DNA of 53,931 bases from an uncultured Paracoccus sp. (GTDB lineage Bacteria > Pseudomonadota > Alphaproteobacteria > Rhodobacterales > Rhodobacteraceae), in the NCBI RefSeq assembly GCF_937873615.1, contig NZ_CALMYP010000050.1, forward strand, positions 1 through 53,931, written 5' to 3'. This document shows positions 4,737 through 27,110 of this stretch, piece after piece. The stretch's first letter is position 1. Each line of letters begins with the position of its first letter. The notes below the pieces were generated by a model, which did not search any database, was not told the origin of the DNA, and was given only the letters and a program-made list of their open reading frames with translations. Position numbers and translations under genes: made by a program.

Positions 4737-4739
4737 GTC

Positions 4740-8861: not shown

Positions 8862-8937
8862 CCTCGTATTATTTATGTATTTTTCTGTCAGGTTACACCA
8901 GTTGAACGGTATGTCATCTGTTATGCAGGATGACGGG

Positions 8938-9528: not shown

Positions 9529-9998
9529 GCGCGCGCCTCCCGCAGCAGGCGAAGCCCGGCGACGACCCGGATCTGATAGGCGAGGAAGGCGTTCAACTCG
9601 GCCAGGCGGACGATATCGGCATCGCTGATGCCCGCGGCCTGAAGGGCCGCGATATCCCCGGCGACGACCTGGCGCGTATCCGCCGCCACCTTGTCCATGA
9701 AGGCGAGCACCGGGCCAAGCCCGCGCGCCGCGCCATCCTGCGCCGGATCGGCAAGGGCGGCATCATCGCCCGCGCCGGTCGCATAGTGCCGGGCGAGCGC
9801 GGTCTGGGCGTTCAGGGTGGCAATACGCGCGGCCAGTGCGGCGCGCAGGGAATGCGGCCAGGCGCCCGGGGCCTTTGGGCGCAGCACCGCGTCCTCGGCA
9901 GCCTGGGTCATCTCGAAGATGTTGGCGCGGGTGGCGATGACTGCCTCCAGCACGCCATCGGTCCCCGCCATGCGAAGTGTCGTGAGCTCTGGCGTCAT
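9525..9998 (-). CDS. CMD domain protein, Avi_7170-like
   Basis: A 157-residue all-helical protein of the carboxymuconolactone-decarboxylase fold (LRAALAARIATLNAQTALARHYA and ISDADIVRLAELNAFLAYQIRVVAGLRLL). It lacks the CxxC pair of its partner encoded next. It overlaps genes at both ends by ATGA junctions, so translation of the three is coupled with the flavoprotein. The start at 9998 was fixed by that overlap. No catalytic residue can be named; a non-redox partner subunit is one possibility. Confidence 0.68.
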   Translation of the reverse strand: MTPELTTLRMAGTDGVLEAVIATRANIFEMTQAAEDAVLRPKAPGAWPHSLRAALAARIATLNAQTALARHYATGAGDDAALADPAQDGAARGLGPVLAFMDKVAADTRQVVAGDIAALQAAGISDADIVRLAELNAFLAYQIRVVAGLRLLREARA

Positions 9999-11479: not shown

Positions 11480-11519
11480 CTGCTCAGATTCCTGGTTTCT
11501 GCGTCCCGTCCGGCCCGGG

Positions 11520-12866
11520 TCACGCGCGCTGCGCGCCGGGCCATTCGGTGTGAAGGTCGTCGATATGGTAGGTATGGCTGTGCCGGTGCCGCAGCCCACT
11601 GGCGGGCGCGTCCCGAAGATGGGGGTGGTCCTCGGGCAGTTCGGGGTGGTCATGTTCAAGGGCTGCCGGATCGCCTGCCGGCCAGACCCGCGCGGCGATT
11701 GCCGCGACCAGCACCGTCAGCACCGACAGCATGATCAGCGCCGGCGCCAGCCCCGCCCGCGCCGCCAGTTGCCCGGCCAGCGGATAAGCCAGCATCCAGC
11801 CGGCATGAGACAGAGAGAACTGCGCCGCGAAAAGCGCCGCGCGATCCGCCGAAACGGCCGAGCGCGCGATGACCAGCCCGCCGGGCGTAAGCACCAGCGA
11901 CGCCGCGATACCCAAGCAGGACCACAGCGCGAAATAGCCCGCCAGCCCCAATGGCAGCGCGATCAGCGGCCCGAGTGCTGCATGGATTAGCGCACCGGCC
12001 AGCATCACCCGCCGCTCGCCCAAGGCTGCGATCAGCCGGGGCACGAATATGGCGCCAAGCGCCGCGCCCAGCCCGTAGAAGGCCATCAGCTTGGGATAGT
12101 AATACTCGGAATCGCCCAGCCAGTTGCCCGCCAGCACGACCGAGTTGACCAGCACCCAGGCCATGCTCAACGAGAGGGCGAGGTTCAGCAGGAACAGCCC
12201 GCGCAGCCGCGGCGTCTTGCGGTAGATCCTGAGCCCCTTCAGGGCGCGCTTCATGAACGGTCCCTTGCCATTGGCTTTCGGCGTGGCCGGAAAGCGCGTC
12301 GCCAGCAGCGCCGCGACAGAGCCGACAAAGGCCAGTGCCGCCAGCCAGAAAAGGAATTGCGCGCTGATCAGCTGCAGCGCCACGGCGGCGATGACCGGCG
12401 ACAGGATCGATTCCAGCGTATAGGCGATGCGCGACCAGACCAGGGCGCGGCTGTAAAGTCCTTCGTCGGGAAAGATATCGGGAATGACCGACTGGAAGAC
12501 CGGCGTGAAGCCCGAGGAAACACCGAAGAACAGGAATGCCAGCGCCGCGATCTGCCAGGTCTCGGTGGCGAAGGCCATGGGCAGAAGCAGCAGCATCCGC
12601 GCCAGGTCCAGCCCGACCATCACCGGCTTGCGCGGCCGGCCGGCCAGCAACGTCTCGGCCATCGGGGCGAGGAAGACATAGGCGACCATCTTGACCGCCA
12701 GCAGGAAGCCGAGGATCTGCCCCGCCGCCGCGGCCCCGCCGATCCGATAGGCGGCCAGCGACATTGCCACCGTCATCAGCCCGATGGCCAGAAGCGAACA
12801 GATCTGCGCAAGGAAAAGCGTGCGGAACGCGGGATTTCCGATGGGGCTTTTCAGCGTCTCGGTCAT
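11520..12866 (-). CDS. Major facilitator superfamily transporter
   Basis: A 448-residue integral membrane protein with about 12 hydrophobic segments (AQICSLLAIGLMTVAMSLAAYRIGG, FLFWLAALAFVGSVAALLATRF, FSLSHAGWMLAYPLAGQLAA). The central basic loop (FMKRALKGLRIYRKTPRLRG) is the usual divider of the two six-helix halves. The C-terminus is a hydrophilic His/Glu-rich tail (EHDHPELPEDHPHLRDAP and RHRHSHTYHIDDLHTEW). That is unusual for an MFS carrier and could bind a metal. It overlaps the class V PLP gene by four bases. Export of a product or toxic intermediate is plausible. Confidence 0.8.
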   Translation of the reverse strand: MTETLKSPIGNPAFRTLFLAQICSLLAIGLMTVAMSLAAYRIGGAAAAGQILGFLLAVKMVAYVFLAPMAETLLAGRPRKPVMVGLDLARMLLLLPMAFATETWQIAALAFLFFGVSSGFTPVFQSVIPDIFPDEGLYSRALVWSRIAYTLESILSPVIAAVALQLISAQFLFWLAALAFVGSVAALLATRFPATPKANGKGPFMKRALKGLRIYRKTPRLRGLFLLNLALSLSMAWVLVNSVVLAGNWLGDSEYYYPKLMAFYGLGAALGAIFVPRLIAALGERRVMLAGALIHAALGPLIALPLGLAGYFALWSCLGIAASLVLTPGGLVIARSAVSADRAALFAAQFSLSHAGWMLAYPLAGQLAARAGLAPALIMLSVLTVLVAAIAARVWPAGDPAALEHDHPELPEDHPHLRDAPASGLRHRHSHTYHIDDLHTEWPGAQRA

Positions 12867-14323
12867 GATGGAACCAGGTTTTTCAGCGAATTACTGGCCT
12901 TGAAGCGGGCGGTACTGCTCTCCACGTGATACCGGCTCAGATACTCGGGCGCAATCCGCGCGAGCTCATCTACCGCATTGATAATCATGTCGGCCTTGCT
13001 ATCGCTCATCAGCGCCGAGAGGTTCAGCCGCACCCAACCGGGCTTCGATGTCTCCTCGCCGCGTTCCAGTGCCGCGATGGTCGCGTCGGATTGCGCGCGC
13101 CCTAGCCCCAGCAGCCGGTGCCCGTAGGGCCCCGCGCAGGCACAGCCGCCACGCGCCTGCACCCCGGTCATGTCGCTGAGCAACCGGGTGAAAAACTGGT
13201 GATGGACCGGCTGGCCGGCGGCATCGCGAATGAGGAAGGAAAAGATCGGCAGCGCCGGCGCGCAGGGATTGCCCAGAATCAGGATACGCGGATTGTCGGA
13301 CCAGGTGGCAAGGGCGCGGGCGCGAAGGGCCTGCTGGCGTGCGTCCAGCCAGTCCTGGCCGAGCGCTTCCTTGACCAGCATCACCAGCGCCGCCCGGATA
13401 TCGCCGGTCAGGTTCGGCGTCCCGCCCTCTTCCCTGGCGACGATACTGTCGGAATAGACATGGCCCCAGGGCGAGACGAAGCTGACCGTGCCGCCGCCGG
13501 GCTGTGTGGGGCTGCGGCGGCGGGCGAGTTCGTCGCGGATGATGGCCACGCCGCTGGCGCCGGGACCGCCGGGGAACTTATGGGCCGAGAAGACGATCGC
13601 ATCCTTTTGCGCATCGGTGCCCTCGCCCATCTCCATCAGGCAATAGGGGCCGGCGCAGCCGTAATCCCAGATCGCCAGCGCCCCATGCGCGCGCAGAAGC
13701 CGCGTCACCGCGTCGCTGTCGCTCAGGATCCCGGTGACATTCGACGCAGCCGAGAAGGCGCCGACGATCCGCGCTGCCCCCTGCGCCGCCGCCAGTGCCC
13801 GGGCGAGATCCTTCAGGTCGACACCGCCCTCCGGCGCCTCGGCAATCTCGATCACCTCGGCGCCGGTCTCGCGCCAGGGCAGGATATTCGAATGATGCTC
13901 GTAAGGTCCGGTCAGCACCACCGCCCGGCCGCCCTCGCGCACGATACCCGCCAGATCAAGCAGCCCCACGATCCTGTTGATGCCCGAGGTCGAGCCGGCC
14001 CCGGTGAAGATGACGCTGGTGCCGGGGCCGGCGCCGGTCAGCCGGGCGATCTCGGCCCGCGCCGCTTCGCGCAGCCGGCTCATGTATTCGCCGCAGAACG
14101 AAGCCTCGGTATGGGTATTGGCGTAGAAGGGCAGCAACCGGTCGCGGATGAAGTCCTCGACCTGCGAGAGCGCGCGGCCCGAGGCGACATAATCGGCATA
14201 GATCAGCGGGCGCCTGCCGAAAGGCCCGTCGAATTCGACATTATCACCGATCAGGCCGGCGCGGATCCGGCCATGAATGTCATCGCCGGAAAGTGCCGCC
14301 TTGAAGTCGTCGATATCGGTCAT
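12863..14323 (-). CDS. Class V aminotransferase-fold PLP enzyme (cysteine desulfurase-like)
   Basis: A 486-residue PLP enzyme of fold type I. The Schiff-base lysine is in VFSAHKFPGGPGASG. Earlier motifs are FTGAGSTSGINRI and YEHHSNILPW (the His that stacks on PLP). Near the C-terminus RGGCACAGPYGHRLLG places a cysteine where cysteine desulfurases carry theirs. Family reactions include C-S, C-N and C-Se lysis; the substrate is not evident. As the promoter-proximal gene it faces the Lrp regulator, and its stop overlaps the MFS start. It is longer than typical IscS/CsdB-like enzymes (about 400), mostly through extra residues at both ends. Confidence 0.78.
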   Translation of the reverse strand: MTDIDDFKAALSGDDIHGRIRAGLIGDNVEFDGPFGRRPLIYADYVASGRALSQVEDFIRDRLLPFYANTHTEASFCGEYMSRLREAARAEIARLTGAGPGTSVIFTGAGSTSGINRIVGLLDLAGIVREGGRAVVLTGPYEHHSNILPWRETGAEVIEIAEAPEGGVDLKDLARALAAAQGAARIVGAFSAASNVTGILSDSDAVTRLLRAHGALAIWDYGCAGPYCLMEMGEGTDAQKDAIVFSAHKFPGGPGASGVAIIRDELARRRSPTQPGGGTVSFVSPWGHVYSDSIVAREEGGTPNLTGDIRAALVMLVKEALGQDWLDARQQALRARALATWSDNPRILILGNPCAPALPIFSFLIRDAAGQPVHHQFFTRLLSDMTGVQARGGCACAGPYGHRLLGLGRAQSDATIAALERGEETSKPGWVRLNLSALMSDSKADMIINAVDELARIAPEYLSRYHVESSTARFKASNSLKNLVPS

Positions 14324-14423
14324 GTCGCCCTCTGAAAGACCCGATCAGTATAACTTGCATTTCGCGAGAATCTTTACATATTCTCATTGCATGATCCGCA
14401 TTATTGGGTCATATGATCGCTCT
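14324..14423. promoter_or_regulatory. Divergent promoter and likely Lrp operator
   Basis: This is the intergenic region between the ten-gene operon and the Lrp gene. An inverted repeat GAGAAT-N8-ATTCTC lies at 14366-14385. On the minus strand a good -10 (TATACT, 14347-14352) would place its -35 at the edge of that repeat. An Lrp-type dimer at the repeat could thus control the operon and its own gene. Binding is inferred from position and symmetry. Confidence 0.45.
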
Positions 14424-14888
14424 ATGGACCATAAATTCGATTATTTCGATTTCCGCATTCTGGAGGCGTTGCAGCGCGATTCCGCGCAGTCGCAGCGGGC
14501 GCTGGCAGATGAGGTGGGGCTCTCTCAGAACGCCTGCTGGCGGCGACTGAAGGCGCTGGAGGCGTCGGGCGTGATCCGCAACCGCACCGTGGTGCTGGAT
14601 CGCGACAAGCTGTTCGGCGGCTTCGTGGTGTTTTCGCTGATCAAGACCCGGCACCATTCGGCTGACTGGCTGCGCCAGTTCCGTCACCATGTCTCTGCCA
14701 TCCCCGAGGTGATCGACTTCTTCCGCATTGGCGGCGAATACGACTATCTGCTGAAGATCGTCACCCGCGACATGGCCAGCTATGACGATGTCTACAAGCG
14801 CCTCATCGCCGATATCGAGCTGGAGACCGTCACCTCCTATTTCGCCATGGAAGCCATCGAGGAACAGCGTCCGATCCCGCTGAGCTGA
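14424..14888 (+). CDS. Lrp/AsnC family transcriptional regulator
   Basis: A 154-residue regulator. The N-terminal HTH is FDFRILEALQRDSAQSQRAL...VGLSQNACWRRLKALEASGVI. The C-terminal ligand-binding RAM/AsnC domain includes EVIDFFRIGGEYDYLLKIVT and ends with a short helix. Lrp proteins sense amino acids and related small molecules. Divergent from the ten-gene operon, it is the probable local regulator that detects the imported compound or its amino-acid product. An in-frame ATG at 14391 would add 11 residues but would cover the promoter; 14424 fits family length. Confidence 0.88.
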   Translation: MDHKFDYFDFRILEALQRDSAQSQRALADEVGLSQNACWRRLKALEASGVIRNRTVVLDRDKLFGGFVVFSLIKTRHHSADWLRQFRHHVSAIPEVIDFFRIGGEYDYLLKIVTRDMASYDDVYKRLIADIELETVTSYFAMEAIEEQRPIPLS

Positions 14889-15288: not shown

Positions 15289-15834
15289 TCACCCGCCTTC
15301 TTCGATCCGGTCGGCAAATTCCAGCGGTGGCAGAGTTGCCGCCCTGATGACGATATCGGCGGCTCGGACGGGCGCGAAGTCCCACAGATCGACCCCGACA
15401 TTGACCTGACGGTCCGAGCCAGCCCAGCGGTCATGAACATGGCCGAAGAGCTGAATGGCCCCCTGCCTCGCCCCGTTCCAACTCAGCAATGGGTAATGAC
15501 AAAGGACGAAACGCTCCGGCCCGTCCTGCACCTCGGTGAGGTCATGAATGCTGGTCCAGGGCAAGGCTTCGATCTGCGCATCGTCATGATTGCCGCGAAT
15601 GAGGTGCTTGCGTCCCGGCAATCCTGTCAGAAGCTCTGACGCAATGGCCGCGCCGCCCTGCGCGGCATCGGCAACGTCGCCCAGGATCCAGAGGTCGTCA
15701 TCGGGGCCGAGCCGGGCCGCCAGCCTTTCAATGACAGCATGGTTCATCGCAGCAACATCGCCGAACGGGCGATCAAAGAAGCGCCGGATGCCATCATCGG
15801 AAAGATGCAGGTCAGCGCTATACCAATGGGTCAT
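15289..15834 (-). CDS. Small calcineurin-like metallophosphoesterase
   Basis: A 181-residue phosphoesterase with all family metal motifs in order: SADLHLSD (D-x-H near residue 8), LGDVAD, GNHDD, CHYPLLSW and FGHVHD. The size and order match the small stand-alone phosphoesterases often annotated as hydrolases or phosphodiesterases. The substrate (nucleotide, DNA end or phosphoester) cannot be told. The start has AGGAG five bases upstream. It follows the helicase-nuclease gene by 148 bp on the same strand, so it could be the last gene of that unit. SbcD-type nucleases share the fold, but this protein lacks their extra capping domain. Confidence 0.8.
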   Translation of the reverse strand: MTHWYSADLHLSDDGIRRFFDRPFGDVAAMNHAVIERLAARLGPDDDLWILGDVADAAQGGAAIASELLTGLPGRKHLIRGNHDDAQIEALPWTSIHDLTEVQDGPERFVLCHYPLLSWNGARQGAIQLFGHVHDRWAGSDRQVNVGVDLWDFAPVRAADIVIRAATLPPLEFADRIEEGG

Positions 15835-15982
15835 GTGAACTCCTGTCAGGTGAGGTCGCGGGTATAGTCATGGGCGGTTCTGTCGCAGACCGTTCCGATG
15901 CCGGAAATTGAACCGCGATTGTCTGGGCGAAGCGCCAAGGTGGGAGAGGTGTGTGGCGATGTCGTTCAAGGGCGCAAGGGCT

Positions 15983-18900
15983 TTACAGCACATCTGCCTG
16001 ACATGCCCGGGCGCGGGCAGAGGTCAGGTCCAGAAAATCGAGCCGCCCATGATCGACCCAAAGCAATGCCACGCCATTCAGCTCGTATGACGGGAACGCG
16101 ACCCGGACCAGGCCGGCATAGGCAGAAAGCTGCGGCCAGTAGGTGCCAAAACCCTCGCCCGCACCGCCGGTCTTGTGGTCGATCAGCAGGCATCCCTTCG
16201 GCCCAACTGCCAGAAGGTCGATCATGCCGGGAATTTCAGCACCCCCTGAAGTGTGCCCCAGCAGAGGGATTTCACAGAGCAGATCGGTGTAGCCTTCGGC
16301 CGACAGCCAGGCCCTCAGCGCCGCCGCCCTCTCTGCCACCAGGTCCAGGGTTGCGTCGTCCAGTCCGGTTGCCGCAGGCAAGGCTGTGATCATGTCGGGC
16401 CGGGTCAGGCACGTCCGCAAGGCAAGGTGCAGCGCCGTGCCTCGGGCCGCATCGCTGACCGAGCGGGGCCATGGAGTACCCAAGGTGATACCCCGGCTAT
16501 CTGGTGCAGACCGGCCCGTAGTGGATTGCGATGGTTGCAACCGCCAGGGCGTCAAGTCCACGGCAGGCAAGGGGGTGGCGCTGCCGAGCCGTGGCGTATC
16601 CGTGATCTCACCCTCCAGATACTCGGTGAAGCCGGCAAGGTCGGGCAACTGCCGGATGGTGGCCGGGCAATCAGTCTCGCCGATGCTCAGCTTATTAACA
16701 TCGATCTTGGGCGCGCAGGCATCTGTAAAGACATGGAACAGGCACTCGGCTTCCGGGGCTTCCTCGTCACGCTTTTTCACGAAGCCAGGCCACTCCAGCA
16801 CCAGTTTGTCGCGGGCCCGGGTCAGGGCGACGTAAAGAAGGTTCTTCGCATTTGCCTCGAAATCCGCGCGCCGATCCTCGATGAACCGCCGCTCGGGCTC
16901 CGGGGCGGCAAATCGCGGCGTGTGGATCAGTGCGGCCGAGGCCAGAACGGCGTCCATATCGTCGATCTTGTCAAGCGCTGTGAACCGGGTCGCAGTGGTT
17001 CCCGGCCATTCTTCGATCTTATGGTCGAATTCCGCGACCACGGTGATCGGCCATTCACGCCCCTTGCTGGCATGCCATGTGACGATCTCGACCGCCTCGG
17101 CGCTGTTGGCGGCGGGGTCGGGACGACGGTCGAAATCGCGCTCGCCCGCGCGGGCATCCAGCCAGCCCAGAAACACCTTGGCGCTTTCGCCATGAAACCC
17201 GGCGGCGGCCTTGAGGTCGCGGTGCGCGGATTCGAAGTCGGCAGCTTCTGCTTCAAGTCGCAAGAGGTCTGCCCGCGCCTGTGCCGCGTCAGGCTGACGG
17301 TCGGCCCATAGACGCAGACCAGAGGCATTGAGCACCAGATCCAGTGCATTGGACATCGGCAAGCGTGCAAGGCTGTCCGACAGGGCCGCCAGTTGCATCA
17401 GCATTGGATCATCCGCAAACCGCCCCTGAATCTGCGCCTGCATTGCGGCTTGCAGGCTGAGCGGATCGGGGCCGAGGGTGCGCAGCACAAGCGCGGCATT
17501 CGTATCGGCGGGGTTCGCGGCATAGCTGAGCGCCGCGCGCGCCGCCTGAACAACCGGACTGGCTGCCCAACCATCCTCGGCAATGCGAACAGGCACGCCG
17601 CGCGCGCGCAATTCCTCGGCATAGCGTGCGGCTGCCGCGTGCGTGCAGACCAGAAGGGCGATGTCAGAGGGACGCACGCTCCTCTCGGCCTTGCTTTGCC
17701 GGTCGGTGATCTTGTCCTCCGCCTCCAGGATCTGGGCGATGCGCTCGGCAATATGCTCGTGCGGCTTGGAATACTTTCTTACCCCGCGGCTTCGGACGGT
17801 GTTCAGGACCTCCAACGCCGGGCCGGACACAGGATCACGGGTCGGGGCCAGCGCGTTGTAGCCTGCGCCAAACAGCCCTGCACCCATGGCATTTACGAAC
17901 TCCATCACCGCCGGTGTTGATCGCCAGTTGCGGTCAAGCGGCTGCGTCGCATCGGGGTTGGCCGCCGCCAATGCCTGCGACAGGCGCGGATCAGCGCCCT
18001 GAAACCCCATGATCGACTGTTTGACATCCCCCACCAGCAGGGTGCGCGGCGCGCGGGCACCCAACTGCCAGAGAAGCGCGAACTGCACCGGGTTGGTGTC
18101 CTGAAATTCGTCGATGATGACGCAGTCAATCTCATCCAGCACGGCCTGTCGCACCGCCGGATCGGTGCGCAACAGCCGTTCGGCGCCTGCAATCATGTCG
18201 GCGAAGTCAATCAGACCAAGCGCCTTCTTGCGCGTCTCGTAAGCCTCCATCACCTCCTGCGCACAGGCGATCATGCACCGAAAATGCAGCTTTGCATCGG
18301 CCAAGGGGCCGGGATGTGCGGGCAGAACGTCCGCCGCCTTCATGATCGCACCGGCAAGCTTATCGTAGCGAGGTGGCGTCTGCGAATTGCGGTTCGAAGT
18401 GAAGAGGCTGCGCAGGGATTGCCAGAGGCCCCAGTCCCGGTCCAGCAGGGTCGGGTCACGTTCGACACGACGAAACAGGGCCAGATTGTTTTCCAGCGTC
18501 TCGCTGGGGCCCTTGGCCGTGACGGTGGCCATGCCGCCCTCTGGAAAGGCTGCAAGCATGGCGGAAACCGCCTTCGCCAACCTTTTACGGGCGGCCGCGG
18601 GATCCTTGATTACCTTGCCATAGATCGTATCGAGCCGCTTCAACGCGGGCGCGATCAGGCCCGGGTCGAGGCCCTTGTCGCCCAGCCCCCGCAACAGGTC
18701 GATCATCGAAAGAACCCGACCTCGCAGCGAATCCTCGACCGTTTCGCCTTTCTGCCAATTGGGCTGATAGCCGAACCGCTCGGGCTCTGCCTTGATCGGG
18801 TCAAGCGATTTGGCATGGGCCAGCGCCTGCCGGATCAGAAGGTCGCGCTCGGGATCGCCAAGGTGGCGCGGTTGCAGTGACGCGCCCGCTGCCAGCGCAT

Positions 18901-19189
18901 GTTCCGTCAACAGCCGCAGGCCCAACCCATGAATCGTTGAGACATAGGCCCTTTCAACCGCCATGGCCTCGGCGACCAGCCCATCCGCCAGAAGCCCCGC
19001 CCGGATGCGTTCGCGCAATTCGCCTGCGGCGGCTTCGGTAAAGGTCACCGCAAGAATACGCTCAGGCCGCACCACGCCACGCTTCACCCAGTCGGAAAGC
19101 TGGGTCTTGATACGATGGGTTTTTCCTGCGCCCGCGCCTGCGGGGACGATGACCAATCCAAGGTCTGAATCTGCGCCGTCCATAGTCAT
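15983..19189 (-). CDS. AddA-like UvrD helicase with C-terminal RecB-type nuclease
   Basis: A 1068-residue SF1A helicase-nuclease. The motifs appear in order: Walker A VPAGAGAGKTHRI (about residue 20), VTFTEAAAGELRERI, Walker B VIIDEFQDTNPVQF (about 355), LLVGDVKQSIMGFQGADP, NWRSTPAVMEF, VTWHASKGREWPITVV and LYVALTRARDKLVLEW. The C-terminal nuclease has GTALHLAL, then GMIDLLAVG and LLIDHKTGG (about 1000) and QLSAYAGL, i.e. a complete PD-(D/E)XK set. It is smaller than housekeeping AddA and very different from it, and it overlaps the AddB-like gene by ATGA. The predicted action is ATP-driven unwinding and cutting of DNA ends, in a complex with that partner. Confidence 0.85.
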   Translation of the reverse strand: MTMDGADSDLGLVIVPAGAGAGKTHRIKTQLSDWVKRGVVRPERILAVTFTEAAAGELRERIRAGLLADGLVAEAMAVERAYVSTIHGLGLRLLTEHALAAGASLQPRHLGDPERDLLIRQALAHAKSLDPIKAEPERFGYQPNWQKGETVEDSLRGRVLSMIDLLRGLGDKGLDPGLIAPALKRLDTIYGKVIKDPAAARKRLAKAVSAMLAAFPEGGMATVTAKGPSETLENNLALFRRVERDPTLLDRDWGLWQSLRSLFTSNRNSQTPPRYDKLAGAIMKAADVLPAHPGPLADAKLHFRCMIACAQEVMEAYETRKKALGLIDFADMIAGAERLLRTDPAVRQAVLDEIDCVIIDEFQDTNPVQFALLWQLGARAPRTLLVGDVKQSIMGFQGADPRLSQALAAANPDATQPLDRNWRSTPAVMEFVNAMGAGLFGAGYNALAPTRDPVSGPALEVLNTVRSRGVRKYSKPHEHIAERIAQILEAEDKITDRQSKAERSVRPSDIALLVCTHAAAARYAEELRARGVPVRIAEDGWAASPVVQAARAALSYAANPADTNAALVLRTLGPDPLSLQAAMQAQIQGRFADDPMLMQLAALSDSLARLPMSNALDLVLNASGLRLWADRQPDAAQARADLLRLEAEAADFESAHRDLKAAAGFHGESAKVFLGWLDARAGERDFDRRPDPAANSAEAVEIVTWHASKGREWPITVVAEFDHKIEEWPGTTATRFTALDKIDDMDAVLASAALIHTPRFAAPEPERRFIEDRRADFEANAKNLLYVALTRARDKLVLEWPGFVKKRDEEAPEAECLFHVFTDACAPKIDVNKLSIGETDCPATIRQLPDLAGFTEYLEGEITDTPRLGSATPLPAVDLTPWRLQPSQSTTGRSAPDSRGITLGTPWPRSVSDAARGTALHLALRTCLTRPDMITALPAATGLDDATLDLVAERAAALRAWLSAEGYTDLLCEIPLLGHTSGGAEIPGMIDLLAVGPKGCLLIDHKTGGAGEGFGTYWPQLSAYAGLVRVAFPSYELNGVALLWVDHGRLDFLDLTSARARACQADVL

Positions 19190-21732
19190 TCCTCCTCGAT
19201 CTGGCGGATGAATGCGGTAACCAGGGTCGAGCCATCGGTCAGCGCATAGGGTGTGAACCCGGCCTCTTTCTTGAAGAACCCCTCGTCAGCCGAGGTATTC
19301 AGCACCACCTGCCCGGCGCCAAGCTGCTCCAGCCGTTCAGCAAGCATCTCAACAGCCGCTTCGTTGACGGCGTCTCCCATGTCCTGGGCGGGCGAGCCTT
19401 CTGCGGGCGCAAGGCCGGATGTCAAAAGCCCACCGTCATTCATCAGGTGATAGGCGATGCCGATCTCGCGACCAGTCAGTGGGACCATCCCGTCGCCGTC
19501 GCGCCGAACAGGACACGCGAGCAAGTCACGATAGAGCCCCGCTTGCAGATCCCAGCCGGCCTCCATTCGCCTGCGCCGGGCCGATGTGCCGCTTTTCTTG
19601 TGATCGACGACAAGCAGCGCGCCGTCAGGCAACTCAAGGATTGCATCGGCCTTGCCATGCAGGCTGATGCCATGCGCTTCACCCGCCAGCCAGATCTCGT
19701 TACCGATGATCTTCGCGCCAAGCGCCAGCAGATGTTCGCGCCAGCGCAGCGCGGCCTGCTGGATCTCTCGTTTCAGGCCGTTGCGTTCCATTTCCCATGA
19801 TGCGCTGCGCAGGAACCCCGCGTGACGGGTCAGCGCAAGATCATAGGCCTGGTCCACCGCGTCGGTCAGTGCTGCAAGATCCGGCACGGGCTGATCCTTG
19901 AGGAACACATGTTCGAACACGTCATGGGCGATGTTGCCTTTGGCCATCACGTCGAGCTCCTCGGCGGACCAGGACATGTCGCCCGCGCCAATCTCATCCA
20001 GAAGCCAGGCCAGCGGGCTGACCAGAAGTGTTTCCAGCCGAGAGGGTGACTGCGGCTTGCTTGTCCCATCATCCTTGCGACGGAGCGCCAGGAGGTCGAG
20101 GCCCGGGAACAAGAGCGCCTCGGGGAGTTCGTCAGGCTCCGGCAAGGGCGGCAGGCGGTGATGGGCCACAGGCCAGTCCTCGGGCGGCAGGCGCGACAGG
20201 TCGAGGATCAGATCCTGAGCCTCCTCCACATCCGATATTGCGCGTGCGACCAGTGACAGCCCCGCTGAAGGCTGCTGCCGCGCGCCCGACAGATCTCGCC
20301 ACGGAATCAGAAAGGTCACGGAGTCTGACACCGCCTGAAGCTGCCGATCGAAGAGAAAGAGACTTTCGGCCAGGCTCTCTGCCCGCCCGCGAAGCTGAAG
20401 CCCGGTGGTGGTTCGGATCGCGGTGATTTCGCTGTCCAGAAACAGTGGGTTGGCGCGGGACCGGGTCGGATAGAGACCGTCCGAGAAATCCGTGACGATC
20501 AGATGTCGGCAATGCCGCCACGGAGTTTCGTGCGCAGCCCACAGGCTGACGCCTTCAAGGTTGTGGTCTGCACCGGCTTGCGGCGGCGACGAGATCTGGA
20601 TACCGCGCAATATCCCTTCCCAGTCCGGGCTGACGTCGCCGGGTGGGATAGACAGCCGCGCACGGACTTCGTTCCCCTGCGAAATGCGCCCGCAGATACG
20701 GTCGATCAGGAACCGCAATTGGGCGAGGCTGCCGGCCGATGCCCGAATATCCGTCCAGAGGTCCATGTGCGCGGGGGTGGATGACAGGATATCACCGCGA
20801 AAGTCACCTCCGATCAGGCTTTCGGCAAGATCGCGCCCTGTCTGCGCGGCCCATGGCATCAGCGGGGACAAGGCCAGACTGGCAAGGACCATCGCGGGCG
20901 TGGGGGTGCGCTTGGCCAGTGCCAGTTGAAGTGCCGTTTCACCAATGATGTCACGCTCTGGCAGGCTGCCGGGAAGACCTGAAATCGGCACGCCTTGATC
21001 GGCAAAGGCCCGTGCGATCTGGCGCGTATCACCAGCGGTCAGCACGGCAATCTCTCGCGCCGGGATACCGCTTTCGATCAATGCGCGCGCTTGGGCCGCC
21101 GCAAAATCGGCGCAGGCGGCCAAATCGCGCAAACCATAAAAGGCGAGGCTGTCATCCTTTGGCGCGGCCTCGATCCCGGCCTCGACCACCCCAACCTGCA
21201 AGGCGTGAAGCCTTGAGCCTTCCGCCGCCGCGCGCTTCTTCGCGGGTGCGGCCACCGCCCCGAATTCCTGCTGCAGCCGCGCGTAAAGTGCCTTCATCGC
21301 GGCTGGCGCATGTGGATCGAGTGACCCCTCGACCACTGGCGCCTGCTCAAGGAACCGCCCATGCGGCAGTTCAAGCACATGCCGCACCGGGGCCAGTCCC
21401 TCGGGCAAGGCCTCTCCCAGTTTTCGCCAAAGCGCCGTCAGAGCATCCAGATGTCGCCCTGCCCGGCTGGCACCCATCGCGTCCGCCGAGGGCACGCGCA
21501 GATCGGCTGTGGCCAGGACCAGACCTTCCAAGGCCGCGCTGACGGCAGAGATCGTCTCGACCGGCGCATTGACCAGGCTCTCCCGCCAGACCGGATGGGG
21601 GTTCTCCGCAATCGCTCGCCCCGGTGCCCAATCAGGGGCTTTGGGGGCAAGCGACAGTTCTGCGAGGCCGGTATCAGTCAGTCGATAATGCAAGCCGGAC
21701 CGGGGATCGGCCACGAGAAACGGATAGAACAT
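19186..21732 (-). CDS. AddB-like protein with PD-(D/E)XK nuclease, no helicase Walker A
   Basis: An 848-residue partner of the AddA-like gene. No Walker A is visible, and the N-terminal half is a degenerate helicase-like body (LTAGDTRQIARAFADQGVPI; HLIVTDFSDGLYPTRS resembles the family's Superfamily I remnant). The C-terminal nuclease is intact by motif: GNIAHDVFEHVF (about 600), HGKADAILEL, VVDHKKSG (about 710) and the QxxxY motif DLQAGLYR. The four cysteines of the AddB/Cas4 iron-sulfur cluster are not seen. This gives a two-nuclease, one-motor complex without an FeS staple. The start lacks a strong ribosome-binding site, so the true N-terminus is open. Confidence 0.78.
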   Translation of the reverse strand: MFYPFLVADPRSGLHYRLTDTGLAELSLAPKAPDWAPGRAIAENPHPVWRESLVNAPVETISAVSAALEGLVLATADLRVPSADAMGASRAGRHLDALTALWRKLGEALPEGLAPVRHVLELPHGRFLEQAPVVEGSLDPHAPAAMKALYARLQQEFGAVAAPAKKRAAAEGSRLHALQVGVVEAGIEAAPKDDSLAFYGLRDLAACADFAAAQARALIESGIPAREIAVLTAGDTRQIARAFADQGVPISGLPGSLPERDIIGETALQLALAKRTPTPAMVLASLALSPLMPWAAQTGRDLAESLIGGDFRGDILSSTPAHMDLWTDIRASAGSLAQLRFLIDRICGRISQGNEVRARLSIPPGDVSPDWEGILRGIQISSPPQAGADHNLEGVSLWAAHETPWRHCRHLIVTDFSDGLYPTRSRANPLFLDSEITAIRTTTGLQLRGRAESLAESLFLFDRQLQAVSDSVTFLIPWRDLSGARQQPSAGLSLVARAISDVEEAQDLILDLSRLPPEDWPVAHHRLPPLPEPDELPEALLFPGLDLLALRRKDDGTSKPQSPSRLETLLVSPLAWLLDEIGAGDMSWSAEELDVMAKGNIAHDVFEHVFLKDQPVPDLAALTDAVDQAYDLALTRHAGFLRSASWEMERNGLKREIQQAALRWREHLLALGAKIIGNEIWLAGEAHGISLHGKADAILELPDGALLVVDHKKSGTSARRRRMEAGWDLQAGLYRDLLACPVRRDGDGMVPLTGREIGIAYHLMNDGGLLTSGLAPAEGSPAQDMGDAVNEAAVEMLAERLEQLGAGQVVLNTSADEGFFKKEAGFTPYALTDGSTLVTAFIRQIEEE

Positions 21733-22003
21733 GGGCTTTCGGCTCTCTGCATGAATTTGGTGGTGTGTTTTGATATTGTTTTAAATCAATGGATTATATA
21801 ATCAGTCTCGGGTTCCTGTGGGCATGCAAAGGACATCCAGCCTCGGATTTTTGATCCTGCGTCGAGCCGTTGCCAACAGCCAAGCTGTCGATGCGGCGCG
21901 GGTGAGAAGCACGGTCACGAAGCAAGCGATGTTCTTTCCTTGTCGGTTCGAATTCACAATATCGCCTGATTACGTCAATTTCGGTCGTATCAGGGGCAGA
22001 GCT
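21733..22003 (-). promoter_or_regulatory. AT-rich spacer with a possible internal promoter
   Basis: A 271-bp gap between the WYL gene and the AddB-like gene. It holds a near-palindromic ATTATATAAT at about 21790-21799, which gives a TATAAT -10 on either strand. No matching -35 is obvious on the minus strand. It may allow the nuclease pair to be transcribed apart from the AAA+/WYL pair. No gene was seen in it. Confidence 0.35.
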
Positions 22004-22945
22004 TCAAGAAACCTCCAGGAATTGCGCTTCAACCTGATCGCCCCATCTCGCCAAATACCATTCCATCTCCTGCCGCCCGCCAGCACGGAAACGGACCACC
22101 AGCGATCCGTCTTCCATGCGCTCGGTCTGCTGTTTCGGATGGAACACATATCCCGCCGCTTCATCGGCCACTTCCGGCAGAAAGTGCCATACGACATCCA
22201 GCGGTTCCTCGCGCCAGACGCCGAAGCTCTCGGATAGCCACTCCTGCAGATCGAACCATTCGGGGCGCTCATAGACATCTGACTCCAATGAAACCCGTTC
22301 GAAACCGGCGAGCGCAAACAGACGCAGATCGTCCTGATACTCGCTCCACGCCAATAGGTACTGGCGCCCCTGGCCAAAGAGCAGGGCAATTGGGCCGAGT
22401 CGGGTATTGCGCGAGAGTTTTGCCGTGGCGCGCGCGCGATGGTCAGCCGAGATCATGACCCCGGCAAGGATTGCCTCACGAAGCTCAGACAAGACCTCAG
22501 GGGAAATGTCTTCACGCGGTCCTGGTCGAAACGCCACGCCGTCAGCCATCAGCTGGGCTTCCAGGTCAGCAGCAATTATCCTGCGGCGGTCTTCGCGGAA
22601 CATTGCCTGCACCTTTCCCAAAAGACGCTCCAGCACTTCTGCCGTCAACTCATCGCCCTCGCGCCGGGCAATGGCGGCGGCGCGGTGCCCGGCGGTCAAC
22701 TCATCAAGCGTCGGCTCGGCCATGCGACCCAATGATCCCGGCGGGAAACGCCAGTATTTTCGGCCACTTTCGCCAGAAAGTTCCTCGATTTGAGGGTATG
22801 CGTTGCGCAGGGCATCACGCATCCGTTCTGCTGTCCGACGGGAAACGCCGAATTCGCGTTCTATATCGGACAGTGAAACACCCTCGGCCGATCCCTGCAT
22901 TTTCAGGGCCAGCCTTTGCAGATCTTCCTGGCGAGCGTAGCGCAT
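22004..22945 (-). CDS. WYL-domain HTH transcriptional regulator
   Basis: A 313-residue regulator. The N-terminal winged HTH is QRLALKMQGSAEGVSLSDIEREFGVSRRTAERMRDAL. The WYL region follows (about 150-230) with AILAGVMISADHRAR and LGPIALLFGQGRQYLLAW. The C-terminal WCX-type extension ends in EMEWYLARWGDQVEAQF. The start at 22945 has AGGAG five bases upstream, which decides it over longer readings. WYL proteins sense nucleic-acid or nucleotide ligands and often control defence or DNA-damage loci. It lies 49 bp after the AAA+ gene and so is probably in its operon. Operators were not identified. Confidence 0.86.
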   Translation of the reverse strand: MRYARQEDLQRLALKMQGSAEGVSLSDIEREFGVSRRTAERMRDALRNAYPQIEELSGESGRKYWRFPPGSLGRMAEPTLDELTAGHRAAAIARREGDELTAEVLERLLGKVQAMFREDRRRIIAADLEAQLMADGVAFRPGPREDISPEVLSELREAILAGVMISADHRARATAKLSRNTRLGPIALLFGQGRQYLLAWSEYQDDLRLFALAGFERVSLESDVYERPEWFDLQEWLSESFGVWREEPLDVVWHFLPEVADEAAGYVFHPKQQTERMEDGSLVVRFRAGGRQEMEWYLARWGDQVEAQFLEVS

Positions 22946-22994
22946 GGGTTCTCCTGACAATGCCGAGCAAGCATTGCGGCGCATGACTTTGGCG

Positions 22995-24998
22995 TCAACG
23001 CCCAAAGCCGATCGGTCGCGCTGTCCCGGTCTTTGCCGCATCTTCACAGATCAGCGCGCGCAGGATTTCCTCCGGGTCTGAATCGCCCAGTGCCTGCACC
23101 TTGCGGGCCACATTCGCGAAATCCCCGGGAGTAAGCCCGGTAAGTGCAGACAACCCGGCTGGAGGCGAGCATGAAAAATGCGCAGCCCAAGCCAGCGGAA
23201 GCTGGTCGATTGAAAGAAAATCGAACCGGATGCGGAAGGTGAACCGGCGCTGTGTTGCAGGGTCGAGCTTTTCAACGAAGTTGGTTGTGCAGACGAAGGG
23301 CAGCGGGTGGCTTTCCATCCAGGTGAGCATTTCATTGACCTGGCTCACCTCCCAGCTGCGTTCAGCGCCGCGACGGTCAGCCAGCAGACTGTCTGCCTCG
23401 TCGAAGATGAGCATGGCACCGTCGGCGCGTGCGTCAGAAAAGGCCTGCGCGATGTTCTGCTCGCTTTCGCCAACCCATTTCGAGATCAGGTCCGAGGCGC
23501 GCTTTTCGATCACTGGCATACCGATGACCCTGGCCAGGTGCCTTGCCCATGCGCTTTTGCCGGTCCCCGCCGGTCCTTCCAGACAGAAACTAACCCTGCG
23601 GGATGCATCGCGGGCCGCCAGCCGCGTCTCGATCCGGCCCAGATCTGCATCTGCGCGGGCCAGACCCTGTTGCCAGGGCACTTCCGAATAATGCCGCGGC
23701 GCACTATCGGCGCCGCCCTTTGCCAGACGGGCAGCGGCATCAAGCACCTGCGAGACAACCGCTTCCCCACCATTGCAAAGCCTTGCCACCTCCATTGCAT
23801 CCGACACAAGCGCCGGTGCCTGATCGTGCCGTTCCGCCATTTCCGGAAGGGCGGCATCCGGTATGCCGACACCATGTCGTTCCTCAAGCCGTCGCCAGAT
23901 GCGCGCCCGGACCCGGCCCGATGGTGGACGCATCAGGACCGAATAGCTGATCCGCCGCAGGAAAGCGGGATCACAGGCCTTGACCGAGTTCGTGGTCCAG
24001 ATCACCGGGATCGGGTTCGTTTCGAGGATTCGGTTGAAATGGACCTTCGACGGGGTCGGGCGGCTGAGGAAGAAGTTCCCCGCAGCAAACAGGTCTTCCA
24101 TCTCGTCGAACAGCAGCACGGTGTCCGATCTTTGCCCCAGCATTCGAGACGCCATGGTCAGTTCGGCCAACCGCTCTTGGCGCGACGGCTCCCCGCCCTC
24201 ATCGTCAGTTTCCCCCACCGCGCGCAGTTCAGCACCGACCTCTCGCGCGAGCACCTTGGCGAATTCAGTCTTGCCTGTGCCGGGAGGTCCGTAGAGCAGA
24301 ATGTGCATGCCTGGCCGACGCTTGGCGAGCGCGTGCGACAGCAGGTCACGCATCAGATCCGCGTCACGACCCAAAGCTTCGAAATCCCGCCATTCAGCCT
24401 CCGGCGCAGCGGCGCGCGGGAACATCAGCGCGATCAGGTCCACAATGCTGTCGACTTCGGCCAGAAGCGCGAGGGTCAGGCGATCAGACAGATCGAACGG
24501 CATCCGGCTGCGAAGCCGACCGTGATTGCGCTGCACCAATCCCGAGTTTGTCAGCCTGCCCGAGGCGCGCATCGCAGCCCGGATTTCATGTTCAGGTGCC
24601 GCGCAGAACCACGACAACAGCAGCGGCACCGTGACCTCCCCTGTTTCAAGCGCGCCATCGACAACATGTTCGAACCCGTCGAACAACTTGTAGAGGGCAA
24701 CGAAGGCTAGGGCGGATGTCTCGACCCGGGACAACCCGAAATGATCGCCAAAGAGGGCTGCGTTGCGCTGAACGGTTTCTGCCTCTCCTCCCCCTGCTGA
24801 GGGAACCAGGTCATGAGCGATGGACCGGACCTTTTCCCACCAGTGGGCGCTAGGCCGGCTACGGGGCCGCTCTGGGCATTCAATGTCGGTTAGGTATTCC
24901 AACCAGCTGGGCAGCTCTTTGGCTATGCGGCTTGCCGGACCGAAACGGTCAGCCAGTCGGGCGATCAGATCAAGGGCGAGGTGTTGTTCGTGCATCAT
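22995..24998 (-). CDS. Tandem AAA+ ATPase with Vps4/p97-type second domain
   Basis: A 667-residue protein: a helical N-terminal domain (1-220) and two AAA modules. D1 has Walker A YGPPGTGKTEF (about 237), Walker B LLFDEMEDLF (about 295) and an RR pair in PAFLRRISYS. D2 has EGPAGTGKSAW (about 475), Walker B LIFDEADSL (about 528), QRRFTF for the Arg finger and a pore loop SKWVGESEQN. That pore loop is the classic one of Vps4/katanin/p97 enzymes, so D2 probably threads a protein (or remodels a complex) through a hexamer pore. The start at 24998 has GGAG seven bases upstream. It is the first gene of the unit containing the WYL regulator and the AddAB-like pair. Confidence 0.8.
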   Translation of the reverse strand: MMHEQHLALDLIARLADRFGPASRIAKELPSWLEYLTDIECPERPRSRPSAHWWEKVRSIAHDLVPSAGGGEAETVQRNAALFGDHFGLSRVETSALAFVALYKLFDGFEHVVDGALETGEVTVPLLLSWFCAAPEHEIRAAMRASGRLTNSGLVQRNHGRLRSRMPFDLSDRLTLALLAEVDSIVDLIALMFPRAAAPEAEWRDFEALGRDADLMRDLLSHALAKRRPGMHILLYGPPGTGKTEFAKVLAREVGAELRAVGETDDEGGEPSRQERLAELTMASRMLGQRSDTVLLFDEMEDLFAAGNFFLSRPTPSKVHFNRILETNPIPVIWTTNSVKACDPAFLRRISYSVLMRPPSGRVRARIWRRLEERHGVGIPDAALPEMAERHDQAPALVSDAMEVARLCNGGEAVVSQVLDAAARLAKGGADSAPRHYSEVPWQQGLARADADLGRIETRLAARDASRRVSFCLEGPAGTGKSAWARHLARVIGMPVIEKRASDLISKWVGESEQNIAQAFSDARADGAMLIFDEADSLLADRRGAERSWEVSQVNEMLTWMESHPLPFVCTTNFVEKLDPATQRRFTFRIRFDFLSIDQLPLAWAAHFSCSPPAGLSALTGLTPGDFANVARKVQALGDSDPEEILRALICEDAAKTGTARPIGFGR

Positions 24999-25220
24999 TG
25001 TCCATCTCCGTTGTTTCAACAGAGATACCAGGCCAATACGTCAGATCTGGACAGATGGTTTCGGCCTTGGATCGGAATTGATGCCATAACCGCCCCCCCC
25101 GGCGGCATCTTTGTGCCTCGGAGGGTCCGCAACGATCCACAAAGGGAGGCGGCCATCAGCCGATCAGGCAGTAACGCTGGATCTGATCGGGGGTGGCGCG
25201 CGGTCTGGTTTGCTCGGCGG
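24999..25220. other. Spacer upstream of the AAA+ gene
   Basis: This 222-bp spacer must carry the promoter of the AAA+ unit and the 3' end of the hydroaromatic operon. I saw a run of eight C at about 25093-25100, but no convincing -35/-10 pair, SOS-type site or terminator. Confidence 0.35.
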
Positions 25221-27110
25221 TCACCGTCTCGGCATGCCTTTCGGGTTCAGGACGCGCTTCTGGGCGGCAATTCGGAACGGTGCGTTCGGACCGCCATAGC
25301 CATCGTAGCCGTCGACCCGTTGCACGATCTCGAAGAACAGCCCGCCGGCCAGAGGCCTGCTGTAATATTGGAAGAAGCAGCCGTCGCTGTCCTCGTCATA
25401 GAGGATATTGAGCGATTTCATCGTCTCGACCTGATCTGCATCCAGGCTGAACCTGGCCTGCAGATCGGCATAGTAATTGCCGGTCATCGGCAGCGGCTGA
25501 AAGCCCATCCCGGACATCCGGCGCGCGGTCGCGAAGATGTCGCCGGTGGCGAAGGCGACATGCTGGACCGCACCGCCGAAGCTGTCGGCCAGAAACCTGC
25601 CGGCAAGCGTTCGATGCGTTTCGGCGCCATTCAGCGTGATCCGTGTCGCGCCATCGGGTGACTTGATCGCCTGGCTGCGCACCAGCCCGTCGGGGTCGAT
25701 GACATCGACCATGACCGCGCGCCGCATGTTGAAGATCGAGCTATAGAACAGCGACCAGCTGAGCATCTCATCGTAGTTCATCGTTTCGGCGATATGGTCG
25801 ATCCTGTACAGGCCGGCATCCGCTTGCGCGCTTTGCCCGGTTGGCTGGAACTCGACCGACCAGACATTCGCAAGACCGCTGGCCTCGTCGATGAAATGCA
25901 TGACACTGCCGCCGACCGAACGAATGGCCGGGATCTCCATCTCTCCCGGGCCGACGGCCTGGCTGAAGGGCGCGGCGGCAAGTGCGACGGCCCGCTGTTC
26001 GGTGTCGGCGGCACTGGCGACGGACAGTCCGACATCGCAGATATTGGTTCCATGCATCGTATAGGCCGAATTCGCGAAACCGGTTGTCTCGGTATTGACC
26101 ACGATCCGGATATCGCCCTGCTGCCACAGCGCGACCTGTTTCGAGACATGGTTGCCGACATGAATGAAGCCCATGCTGCGAAGCAGCGCCGTCAGGGCTG
26201 CGGCTTCCTCGTCGCGGGTGGCGAATTCGATGAAGGCAAATCCGTCGACATCGACCCGCGCCGGAATGTCGGGCACCTCGATCCGGATGCCGGGTTCGCT
26301 GCGGCGGACATCGTCCATGAGCGCGACAAGCGACCGGTAACCGTCGCGGGCCAGGCCATCGGGGCGGCCACCCCGGAACTGGTCGTTGAAGATCTCCAGG
26401 CTGACGGGCCCGTCATAGCCGGTGGCCGCAACGGCGCGCATGAAATCGGTGACGGCGAGATCTCCCTCACCCGGCATGGAGCGGAAATGCCGCGACCAGT
26501 ACAACAGATCCATGTCGATCAGCGGGGCGTCGGCCAGTTGCACGAAGAATATCCTGTCGCTCGGGATGCGGCGGATGGTGTCGGGGTCGATCTTGCGCGC
26601 CAATGTGTGAAAACTGTCCAGGATCAGCCCGATATTCGGGTGATCGGCGCGCCGGACGATTTCCCAGGCGTCGCGATGGTCGTTGACATGGCGACCCCAG
26701 GCGAGCGCCTCGTATCCGACGCGCATCCCTTGCGTGGCGGCGATCTCGCCAAGTTCGGCGAAGTCGTCGGCGGCGCGGTCTATCCCGCCAAGCGCCGCCG
26801 GGTGAAGCGAGGAACAGATCAGCATCAGGTCGGTGCCAAGCTCTGCCATGGTGTCGAACTTGCGGCGCGCGCGCTCGAAAGCCTTGGCGCGCAAGTCGCC
26901 CGGAAGCCCCTCGAAGTCCCGGAACGGCTGGAAAAGCGTGATCTCCAGCCCGTGATCGCGGATCATGTCGCCGATCTCGCGCGGGGAGCCGGCATCGGCA
27001 ATGAAATCCTGTTCGAAGATCTCGATCCCGTCGAAGCCGGCCCGGGCGATGGCGGCCAGCTTTTCGCGGAGATTGCCGGAAATCGAGACCGTGGCGATAG
27101 AGGTTTTCAT
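25221..27110 (-). CDS. quiC: QuiC-like 3-dehydroshikimate dehydratase fusion (TIM barrel + HPPD-like)
   Basis: A 629-residue two-domain enzyme. Residues 1-280 are a xylose-isomerase-type TIM barrel with the metal ligands seen as VGYEALAW (Glu), LILDSFHTL (Asp), FFVQLADAP (Gln) and VSLEIFNDQ (Glu). Residues 290-629 are a glyoxalase-fold, HPPD-like half with His in RIDHIAETMN and VQHVAFATGDI and Glu in FEIVQRVDG. This is the architecture of fused bacterial DHS dehydratases, which turn 3-dehydroshikimate into protocatechuate. In that family the second half is usually of unknown activity; here its metal triad looks intact. The gene ends the operon and overlaps AroE by four bases. Confidence 0.88.
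   Translation of the reverse strand: MKTSIATVSISGNLREKLAAIARAGFDGIEIFEQDFIADAGSPREIGDMIRDHGLEITLFQPFRDFEGLPGDLRAKAFERARRKFDTMAELGTDLMLICSSLHPAALGGIDRAADDFAELGEIAATQGMRVGYEALAWGRHVNDHRDAWEIVRRADHPNIGLILDSFHTLARKIDPDTIRRIPSDRIFFVQLADAPLIDMDLLYWSRHFRSMPGEGDLAVTDFMRAVAATGYDGPVSLEIFNDQFRGGRPDGLARDGYRSLVALMDDVRRSEPGIRIEVPDIPARVDVDGFAFIEFATRDEEAAALTALLRSMGFIHVGNHVSKQVALWQQGDIRIVVNTETTGFANSAYTMHGTNICDVGLSVASAADTEQRAVALAAAPFSQAVGPGEMEIPAIRSVGGSVMHFIDEASGLANVWSVEFQPTGQSAQADAGLYRIDHIAETMNYDEMLSWSLFYSSIFNMRRAVMVDVIDPDGLVRSQAIKSPDGATRITLNGAETHRTLAGRFLADSFGGAVQHVAFATGDIFATARRMSGMGFQPLPMTGNYYADLQARFSLDADQVETMKSLNILYDEDSDGCFFQYYSRPLAGGLFFEIVQRVDGYDGYGGPNAPFRIAAQKRVLNPKGMPRR

Follow-up and report, generated by a model that had tools for sequence, protein, structure and literature searches.

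What does a gene cluster do that sets a tandem AAA+ ATPase and a WYL regulator beside an AddAB-like pair? The cluster lies in a contig of an uncultured Paracoccus sp., the whole 53,931-nucleotide stretch of which is the window analysed here. Our reading, to which we assign a probability of roughly 0.5, is that the cluster is a pared-down version of a mobile and modular defence locus, as yet unnamed, that is induced by ssDNA and built around a diverged AddAB-like helicase-nuclease.

The cluster comprises four intact minus-strand genes, and coordinates, open reading frames (ORFs) and Pfam matches agree with the domains assigned in an earlier note on this DNA. The first gene encodes the tandem AAA+ ATPase (P0001; 22995–24998, 667 aa; two AAA stretches in Pfam); its ATG is at 24998, and the ORF stays open 5′ of it to a TTG at 25019. 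The second encodes a DriD-like wHTH-WYL-WCX transcription regulator (P0002; 22004–22945, 313 aa; Pfam WYL and WCX). After a 271-bp interval, where the earlier note overlooked a fragment of a gene since lost, come the AddB-like subunit (P0003; 19186–21732, 848 aa), which has a PD-(D/E)XK nuclease domain (PDDEXK_1) and no Walker A motif, and the AddA-like SF1 helicase (P0004; 15983–19189, 1068 aa), which has UvrD N- and C-terminal domains and, at its C terminus, nuclease motifs of PD-(D/E)XK type. The 49-bp gap between the ATPase and regulator genes, the 4-bp ATGA overlap of the AddB-like and AddA-like genes, and the 148-bp gap that separates the latter from a small metallophosphoesterase gene on the same strand (P0005; 15289–15834, 181 aa) are as first described. 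The four main genes have dN/dS values of 0.04–0.19 against five relatives, indicating that they are under purifying selection and, therefore, that the cluster is not a product of chance.

The best fold match of P0003 is AddB of the B. subtilis AddAB complex (4ceh_B, 4.6e-21), and a GxGK[ST] motif is found in 0 of 71 AddB-like relatives, supporting the proposal that the protein is helicase-dead. The AddA-like family retains Walker A, DEFQD and DHK in 63 of 64 members; the nuclease motifs of P0004 were read from the alignment, Pfam giving no nuclease match. The pair resembles AddAB in subunit order, in the dead helicase fold of AddB, in the PD-(D/E)XK-type motifs of both subunits and in the intact SF1 motor motifs of AddA, but P0003 shares only ~14% identity with AddB in the structural alignment and has 848 aa against 982 aa for the genome's own AddB ORF. 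Furthermore, the window pair is a patchy, mobile second copy alongside an intact housekeeping pair. The housekeeping addAB genes, whose absence was to have counted against the earlier interpretation, are present on another contig, with scores (AddB 683.3 bits, AddA 1115.5 bits) above the curated NCBIfam cut-offs (addB_alphas, 486.5 bits; addA_alphas, 860.75 bits). P0004 reaches 152.4 bits with addA_alphas, and P0003 matches no NCBIfam family at 1e-3 and so falls short of addB_alphas as well. The window pair is thus distinct from housekeeping addAB.

P0001 is a CDC48/VCP/Rix7-like protein in which two full AAA modules follow ~215 aa of largely helical N-terminal sequence unmatched in Pfam. In its family (alignments of 25 and 20 rows), the two Walker A lysines, the two DE pairs and the two RR pairs never vary. 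Its best PADLOC family is IetA (98 bits) and that of P0004 is GajB (125 bits, within the shared UvrD motor), matches that would suit a known system; nevertheless, we consider it very improbable that the cluster is IetAS, Gabija, BREX, Azaca or a duplicated housekeeping AddAB. P0001 is related to IetA at the level of the AAA domain but differs in its two full modules and helical N-terminal region; it scores 92 bits with the NCBIfam IetA-type model (cut-off 510), and no peptidase S8, the subtilase partner in IetAS, is found among the 35 window ORFs scanned. The same ORFs include no TOPRIM partner, such as the TOPRIM/OLD protein GajA of Gabija, and no BrxC, PglX or PglZ, PADLOC having been run on the five cluster proteins; no BREX or Azaca gene is recognised at the locus. 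Duplicated housekeeping AddAB is rejected by score, P0004 lying far below the AddA cut-off. P0003 matches no PADLOC family at 1e-3, in agreement with the earlier view that the cluster fits none of the systems considered.

ARMADA, BRIGADE and TALON (PMC12458937) were also rejected: none of the four main proteins was recognised as a YprA-type helicase, and in that paper the sole mention of WYL is a reference and the sole mention of UvrD is the ArmD helicase. The main text of a large BREX survey (PMC12839542) contains no AddB, RecB, UvrD or Azaca, and the literature searched yielded no description of an AddAB-like modular locus.

Comparison of 78 related loci reveals that the AddB-AddA pair is the core and hardly varies (77 loci have the AddB family, 75 AddA), with the remaining genes attached to it as modules. 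L061 is an exception: it has AddB and ample sequence but shows no AddA ORF. Upstream of the core, 58 loci carry AAA+ and WYL (26), WYL only (9), AAA+ only (3), BREX (9) or none of these (11). Directly behind AddA, a complete three-gene cassette is present in 34 of the 49 loci with enough downstream sequence (22 M27-like, 12 Azaca), counting strictly complete ZacABC or M27ABC sets; two further loci carry a partial M27, and 13 have no recognised downstream cassette. For example, L028 holds a genuine Azaca (388, 516 and 1031 bits). It is 97.8% identical to L027 over 8.3 kb that end 142 bp before the AddA stop codon, after which the cassettes differ. With at least 14 changes of downstream state on the AddB tree, the cassette, Azaca or Azaca-like PDC-M27, is exchanged between loci. 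Upstream, type I BREX replaces AAA+/WYL in one clade of nine loci, in which, as in L045, BrxC-PglX-PglZ-BrxL precede a retained AddB-AddA and M27. Since relatives often adjoin recognised phage-defence genes, the cluster is probably an unnamed defence locus, and the defence context suspected at the outset gains support from these Azaca, PDC-M27 and BREX neighbours.

Of the fixed four-gene unit that the earlier note had envisaged, only the AddB-AddA core stands; AAA+ and WYL are exchangeable modules, and the four genes do not always occur together, a finding that the note itself had named as counting against its unit. AAA+-WYL is found without AddB-AddA in L016, L017 and L019; in nine AAA+ neighbourhoods from a sample of the class, a WYL gene lies close by in five, the pair in none. 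Together with the nine BREX-type loci, in which AddB-AddA occurs without AAA+-WYL, these cases would fit a reading in which the window merely juxtaposes a small AAA+-WYL regulator/ATPase system and an AddB-AddA add-on of Azaca-type or BREX systems. We regard this as unlikely: on the AddB tree the BREX type forms one nested clade, so that AAA+-WYL appears to be the ancestral partner of AddB in these alphaproteobacteria; in addition, a candidate operator of the WYL protein would link the two parts.

The closest solved structure to P0002 is DriD of Caulobacter crescentus, an ssDNA-sensing activator (best PDB matches 8tp8, 1e-44, and 9pfq, 6e-44; a passage in PMC11804915 identifies 8TP8 as DriD). 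P0002 31–341 aligns to 8tp8 17–323, so that the wHTH-WYL-WCX homology, over 300 aa, is nearly full length, and both share the identical HTH segment RRTAERMRDA, which is probably the recognition helix. P0002 differs from DriD in being locus-specific and adjoining AAA+ and nuclease genes, and its sensing of ssDNA is inferred from this homology. Against an activator of DriD type, passages of PMC9122601 describe the WYL protein BrxR, also from defence loci, as a repressor. A DriD paralogue elsewhere in the genome was sought and rejected: the sequence surrounding each of the four further WYL domains bears no useful resemblance to P0002 (best E, 0.13).

We searched for a DriD-like pattern, ATACGAC-N7-GTCGTAT. 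In the window, a DriD-like operator with two mismatches lies at 21970–21990, 13 bp behind the WYL stop codon; it is not significant alone (0.71 sites expected in the window at ≤3 mismatches) but is significant by comparison across loci. A weak candidate operator with four mismatches, one of six such sites (≤4) in the window, lies at 25036–25056, 37 bp before the start codon of AAA+, a spacing equal to that in L025 (site 5176–5196, start 5234). Among related and hence non-independent loci, operators with ≤3 mismatches occur after WYL, ahead of the next unit, in 30 of 46 regions (shuffles, 0.2) and before AAA+ in 14 of 31 (shuffles, 0.35), being missing from the other 16 and 17; there are none before AddB in BREX-type loci (0/9), after AddA (0/60) or inside AddB (0/71). 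A complete same-genus locus, L105, has only sites of four and five mismatches. DriD-type operators thus lie at putative promoters across the family, weakly so in L105.

The window locus is, judged by its sequence, a reduced derivative that lacks a downstream cassette and has lost a phosphatase/ADP-ribosylglycohydrolase gene. A 5′ remnant of that gene persists at 21866–21943 on the minus strand (tblastn 4e-9 over 26 aa; DNA 86% identical to L025 over 77 bp), and its body is missing. No window ORF is of M27 type (blastp), and a search of the genome with M27C of L105 returned only a weakly similar helicase (1.7e-5) that scores as BrxH and belongs to a different BREX on contig C64, BrxF-BrxC-PglXI-BrxH-PglZ. 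The cluster differs from most relatives in lacking the trio, a point that the earlier note did not bring out, and from the BREX clade in lacking BREX.

The locus is mobile and its spread is patchy: it occurs in 4 of 37 genomes of the genus (counting this one and a fragment) and 6 of 295 of the family (again counting this one), and the AddB gene is on 11 plasmid records (10 at ≥80% coverage), seven of them typed conjugative. Such plasmids would also suit an accessory repair module, a horizontally moving, damage-inducible AddAB paralogue in which an ssDNA-activated WYL protein raises resection and aids host or plasmid after double-strand breaks, with no invader targeted; AddAB is a break-repair enzyme, and DriD appears as a DNA-damage regulator in portions of PMC12340889 and PMC11804915. 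This has a low probability in our estimate, given that the genome already holds a complete housekeeping addAB and that, wherever enough sequence is available, most loci combine the core with Azaca, PDC-M27 or BREX. Moreover, cassettes are swapped near the AddA stop codon, a behaviour not known from repair operons. Phage sequences gave no match to the locus and therefore no direct phage link. The left flanking gene (25221–27110) has a match in 24 of the 41 genomes of the genus, this one among them; in an empty-site comparison, a right-flank gene was recognised in none of six stretches beside such matches.

If the defence reading holds, the WYL protein would bind ssDNA from a replicating phage, an entering plasmid or broken DNA and, through similar operators, activate two units, AAA+-WYL itself and AddB-AddA with its attached modules. 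AddA would then unwind DNA from ends, with AddB as its helicase-dead partner, and the nuclease domains of both may cut the strands and so degrade linear or processed invader DNA. The CDC48-like ring may remodel a protein or nucleoprotein target, and the Azaca or Azaca-like cassette of most relatives, with its PLD-type protein and SNF2-type helicase, may supply ends or discrimination. Tentatively, and with somewhat under even odds, we propose a class of unnamed immune loci in which a conserved AddAB-derived end-degrading core is governed by a DriD-like ssDNA switch, ssDNA made by unwinding sustains that switch, and interchangeable cassettes (Azaca, PDC-M27, BREX, ADP-ribosylglycohydrolase/HEPN) occupy fixed flanking slots. 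An inducible defence locus would then have taken over a break-repair machine as its core, and the trigger and regulator-operator pair of such a locus would be predictable beforehand, offering a way to learn how such a locus stays off before infection. It would also bear on why some Azaca and BREX loci adjoin AddB-AddA, and PD-(D/E)XK nuclease and UvrD helicase annotations on alphaproteobacterial plasmids may then mean defence, not repair.

The metallophosphoesterase P0005 is weakly PdeM-like (30 bits, cut-off 150), with no Pfam family at 1e-3. It was rejected as a core part, its homologues occurring in L105 (the same locus as L022) and L069 alone, and is at best an occasional accessory or passenger; other phosphoesterase families are present in L034, L037, L059, L014 and L091.

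The locus is built around an AddB-AddA pair that is distinct from the housekeeping enzyme. The five minus-strand genes have the positions, gaps and overlap that an earlier note had claimed for them, as judged from ORF coordinates, and its domain calls were borne out by Pfam, which finds two AAA stretches in the ATPase, WYL and WCX domains in the regulator, PDDEXK_1 in the AddB-like protein and UvrD helicase domains in the AddA-like protein. Compared with five relatives, the four main genes, all of them intact, show purifying selection (dN/dS 0.04–0.19). The same note had counted on housekeeping addAB genes elsewhere in this 3.86-Mb genome (74 contigs, the window being contig C50), and these lie on contig C68, scoring above the curated cut-offs (AddB, 683 bits; AddA, 1115 bits). 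The AddA-like protein of the window reaches 152 bits against an NCBIfam cut-off of 861, and the AddB-like protein matches no NCBIfam family at 1e-3; the window pair is not the housekeeping pair.

The AlphaFold model of the AddB-like protein (31-row alignment, pLDDT 84.5, pTM 0.52) has the AddB chain of AddAB as its best structural match (4.6e-21, ~14% identity). None of 71 relatives contains a GxGK[ST] motif, and a simple PD-(D/E)xK pattern is present in 63 of them; in the 31-row alignment H603, D696, D710, Q730 and Y734 do not vary, and conservation of K712 is at least 90%. In AddA, the Walker A, DEFQD and DHK motifs are retained in 63 of 64 cases, with invariant alignment columns. These conserved motifs point to a C-terminal nuclease in the AddA-like protein, a part in which Pfam finds helicase-type domains only. 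The ATPase belongs to the CDC48/VCP/Rix7/NVL group and has two conserved ATPase sites. Its N-terminal region of ~215 aa has no Pfam match and is mostly helical in the predicted model; the family of the ATPase suggests a remodelling role.

To obtain related loci, we used an alignment of four AddB sequences to scan 84,980 species genomes. The best 80 of 81 matches gave 78 loci, a minimum number since short patterns seed the scan, assigned by record title to Pseudomonadota (71, including Rhodobacterales 31, Sphingomonadales 20 and Hyphomicrobiales 12), Chlorobiota (4), Thermodesulfobacteriota (2) and a 'Euryarchaeota' MAG (1). ORF clusters found anywhere in these loci, many of which are cut by contig ends, were AddB (77), AddA (75), WYL (46), AAA+ (33), M27C-like (24), ARH (22), ZacC-like (14) and HEPN-like (10); one locus, L061, has AddB without an AddA ORF. 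The ARH gene encodes a DSP-type phosphatase fused to an ADP-ribosylglycohydrolase and lies within two ORFs ahead of AddB in 18 loci (L025–L034, L036, L048, L051, L057, L058, L062, L066 and L067). The ARH and HEPN-like genes hint at a side branch of ADP-ribose or nucleotide signalling.

Both flanks of AddB-AddA vary. Among 58 loci with at least 5 kb upstream (a module anywhere upstream in the stretch being counted, and L098 left out for its unclustered AddB ORF), 26 carry AAA+ and WYL, 9 WYL only, 3 AAA+ only, 9 BREX and 11 none, the WYL labels including a few at only 21–24% identity. Among 49 loci with AddA and at least 5.5 kb downstream, a complete gene trio directly behind AddA is M27-like in 22 and Azaca in 12, M27 is partial in 2 (L049, L088), and 13 have no recognised cassette, although in L082 similar genes lie behind AddA in the opposite orientation. 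PADLOC was applied to representatives only and identified PDC-M27A, B and C in Rhodoferax (605, 805 and 1288 bits), ZacA, B and C in Palleronia (388, 516 and 1031 bits) and BrxC, PglX, PglZ and BrxL in L045 (638, 1415, 1051 and 1167 bits). The M27-like cassettes beside AddB-AddA bear only a distant resemblance to the PADLOC models; in Leisingera, cassette protein A has no PADLOC match and protein B only a weak match to ZacB.

Close pairs show that these modules are exchanged. L027 and L028 share 8.3 kb at 97.8% identity, ending 142 bp short of the AddA stop, beyond which their cassettes differ. L030 and L048 share 12.2 kb at 93% identity, part 40 bp short of the AddA stop and resemble each other again past the cassette. 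A quickly built tree from 72 AddB proteins requires 8 upstream and at least 14 downstream state changes, and in it the eight BREX-type rows form one clade (with L041, L042 and L044) nested in the AAA+/WYL group; the deep part has long branches, so we rely on the alphaproteobacterial pattern only. A very similar BREX-AddB-AddA-M27 element is shared by several genera within the Hyphomicrobiales and Rhodobacterales (L038, L039, L040, L043, L045, L060, L063, L064 and L065). AddB of these nine loci is 94.3–99.7% identical, M27 not being visible in L064 (contig ends), and the element looks recently spread.

The best solved-structure matches of the WYL regulator are 8tp8 (156 bits, 1e-44) and 9pfq. 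8TP8 appears in PMC11804915 as DriD, which PMC12340889 presents as an activator switched on by ssDNA and gives ATACGAC-N7-GTCGTAT as its site; when DriD and the window's regulator are aligned, they have RRTAERMRDA in the HTH in common. A site with up to three mismatches lies behind WYL in 30 of 46 regions (0.2 expected from the mean of 20 shuffles) and ahead of AAA+ in 14 of 31 (0.35 expected). No such site occurs in the 9 regions upstream of AddB in BREX-type loci, the 60 regions behind AddA or the 71 regions within AddB. Related loci are not independent samples in these counts, and the signal is seen in two distant AddB clades and in two separate places. The window has a predicted site with two mismatches behind WYL, which is not significant alone (0.71 expected at up to three in the window), and a candidate with four ahead of AAA+. 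Away from AddB-AddA loci, the AAA+-WYL pairs of L128, L131 and L016 have a site close to AAA+, and those of L017, L019 and L130 have none there.

Azaca was reportedly shown by Millman et al. 2022 to protect against phages. The genes and their motifs, the operator sites, the module exchange, the reduction and the patchy spread are observations, and the mechanism is a proposal built on them. In it, ssDNA arising in phage replication, in conjugation or at breaks would activate the WYL protein, which would induce AAA+-WYL and AddB-AddA; AddB-AddA would degrade DNA from ends, and the cassette, if present, may add cutting or discrimination. The main rival, also compatible with the sequence, is that the locus serves DNA repair. 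The gene set is described in no paper among the open-access PMC matches listed (20 of 6,171, 15 of 241 and 15 of 78 in several searches); Azaca appears in a table of PMC10952713, credited there to Millman et al. 2022.

The window copy is reduced. Its 271-bp WYL-AddB gap holds the first codons of the ARH gene (26 aa aligned by tblastn at 4e-9; 77 bp of DNA at 86% identity), the window has no M27-type gene, and its AddB is nested among cassette-bearing relatives in the tree. L105, from the same genus, has AAA+, a phosphoesterase in the opposite orientation, WYL, AddB, AddA and M27ABC; its AAA+ gene does not form a single open reading frame, and its candidate operators have four and five mismatches only. 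Other AddB copies are in decay: L107 retains AddB fragments only, and two family genomes (G511:C83, G684:C35) have an in-frame stop within the AddB match. Around the cluster, positions 3651–14888 and 25221–52504 carry catabolic and transport genes (ABC, TctA/TctC, DctP/DctM, aminotransferases, GntR/LysR regulators), with no integrase or transposase among the scanned ORFs. A BREX-type locus lies on contig C64 of the same genome (L145, 109–14600: WYL, BrxF, BrxC, HEC-01A/B pair, PglXI, BrxH helicase, PglZ).

The distribution is patchy. AddB-like genes occur in 4 of 37 genus genomes (the window's own and one fragment counted), 6 of 295 family genomes (own counted), 1 of 385 class-sample genomes (the window's own) and 0 of 50,697 phage records, and in 11 of 72,556 plasmid records, 10 at 80% coverage or more and 7 typed conjugative. 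The AAA+ family occurs in 10 of 289 class-sample genomes (own counted); among nine neighbourhoods from 12 class-sample matches (own and two partial omitted), five have WYL nearby and none has the AddB-AddA pair. In L135 (5869–11143), a RecB/AddA-like protein with ~21% identity to the window's AddA-like protein lies directly ahead of AAA+, with WYL nearby, possibly a parallel pairing.
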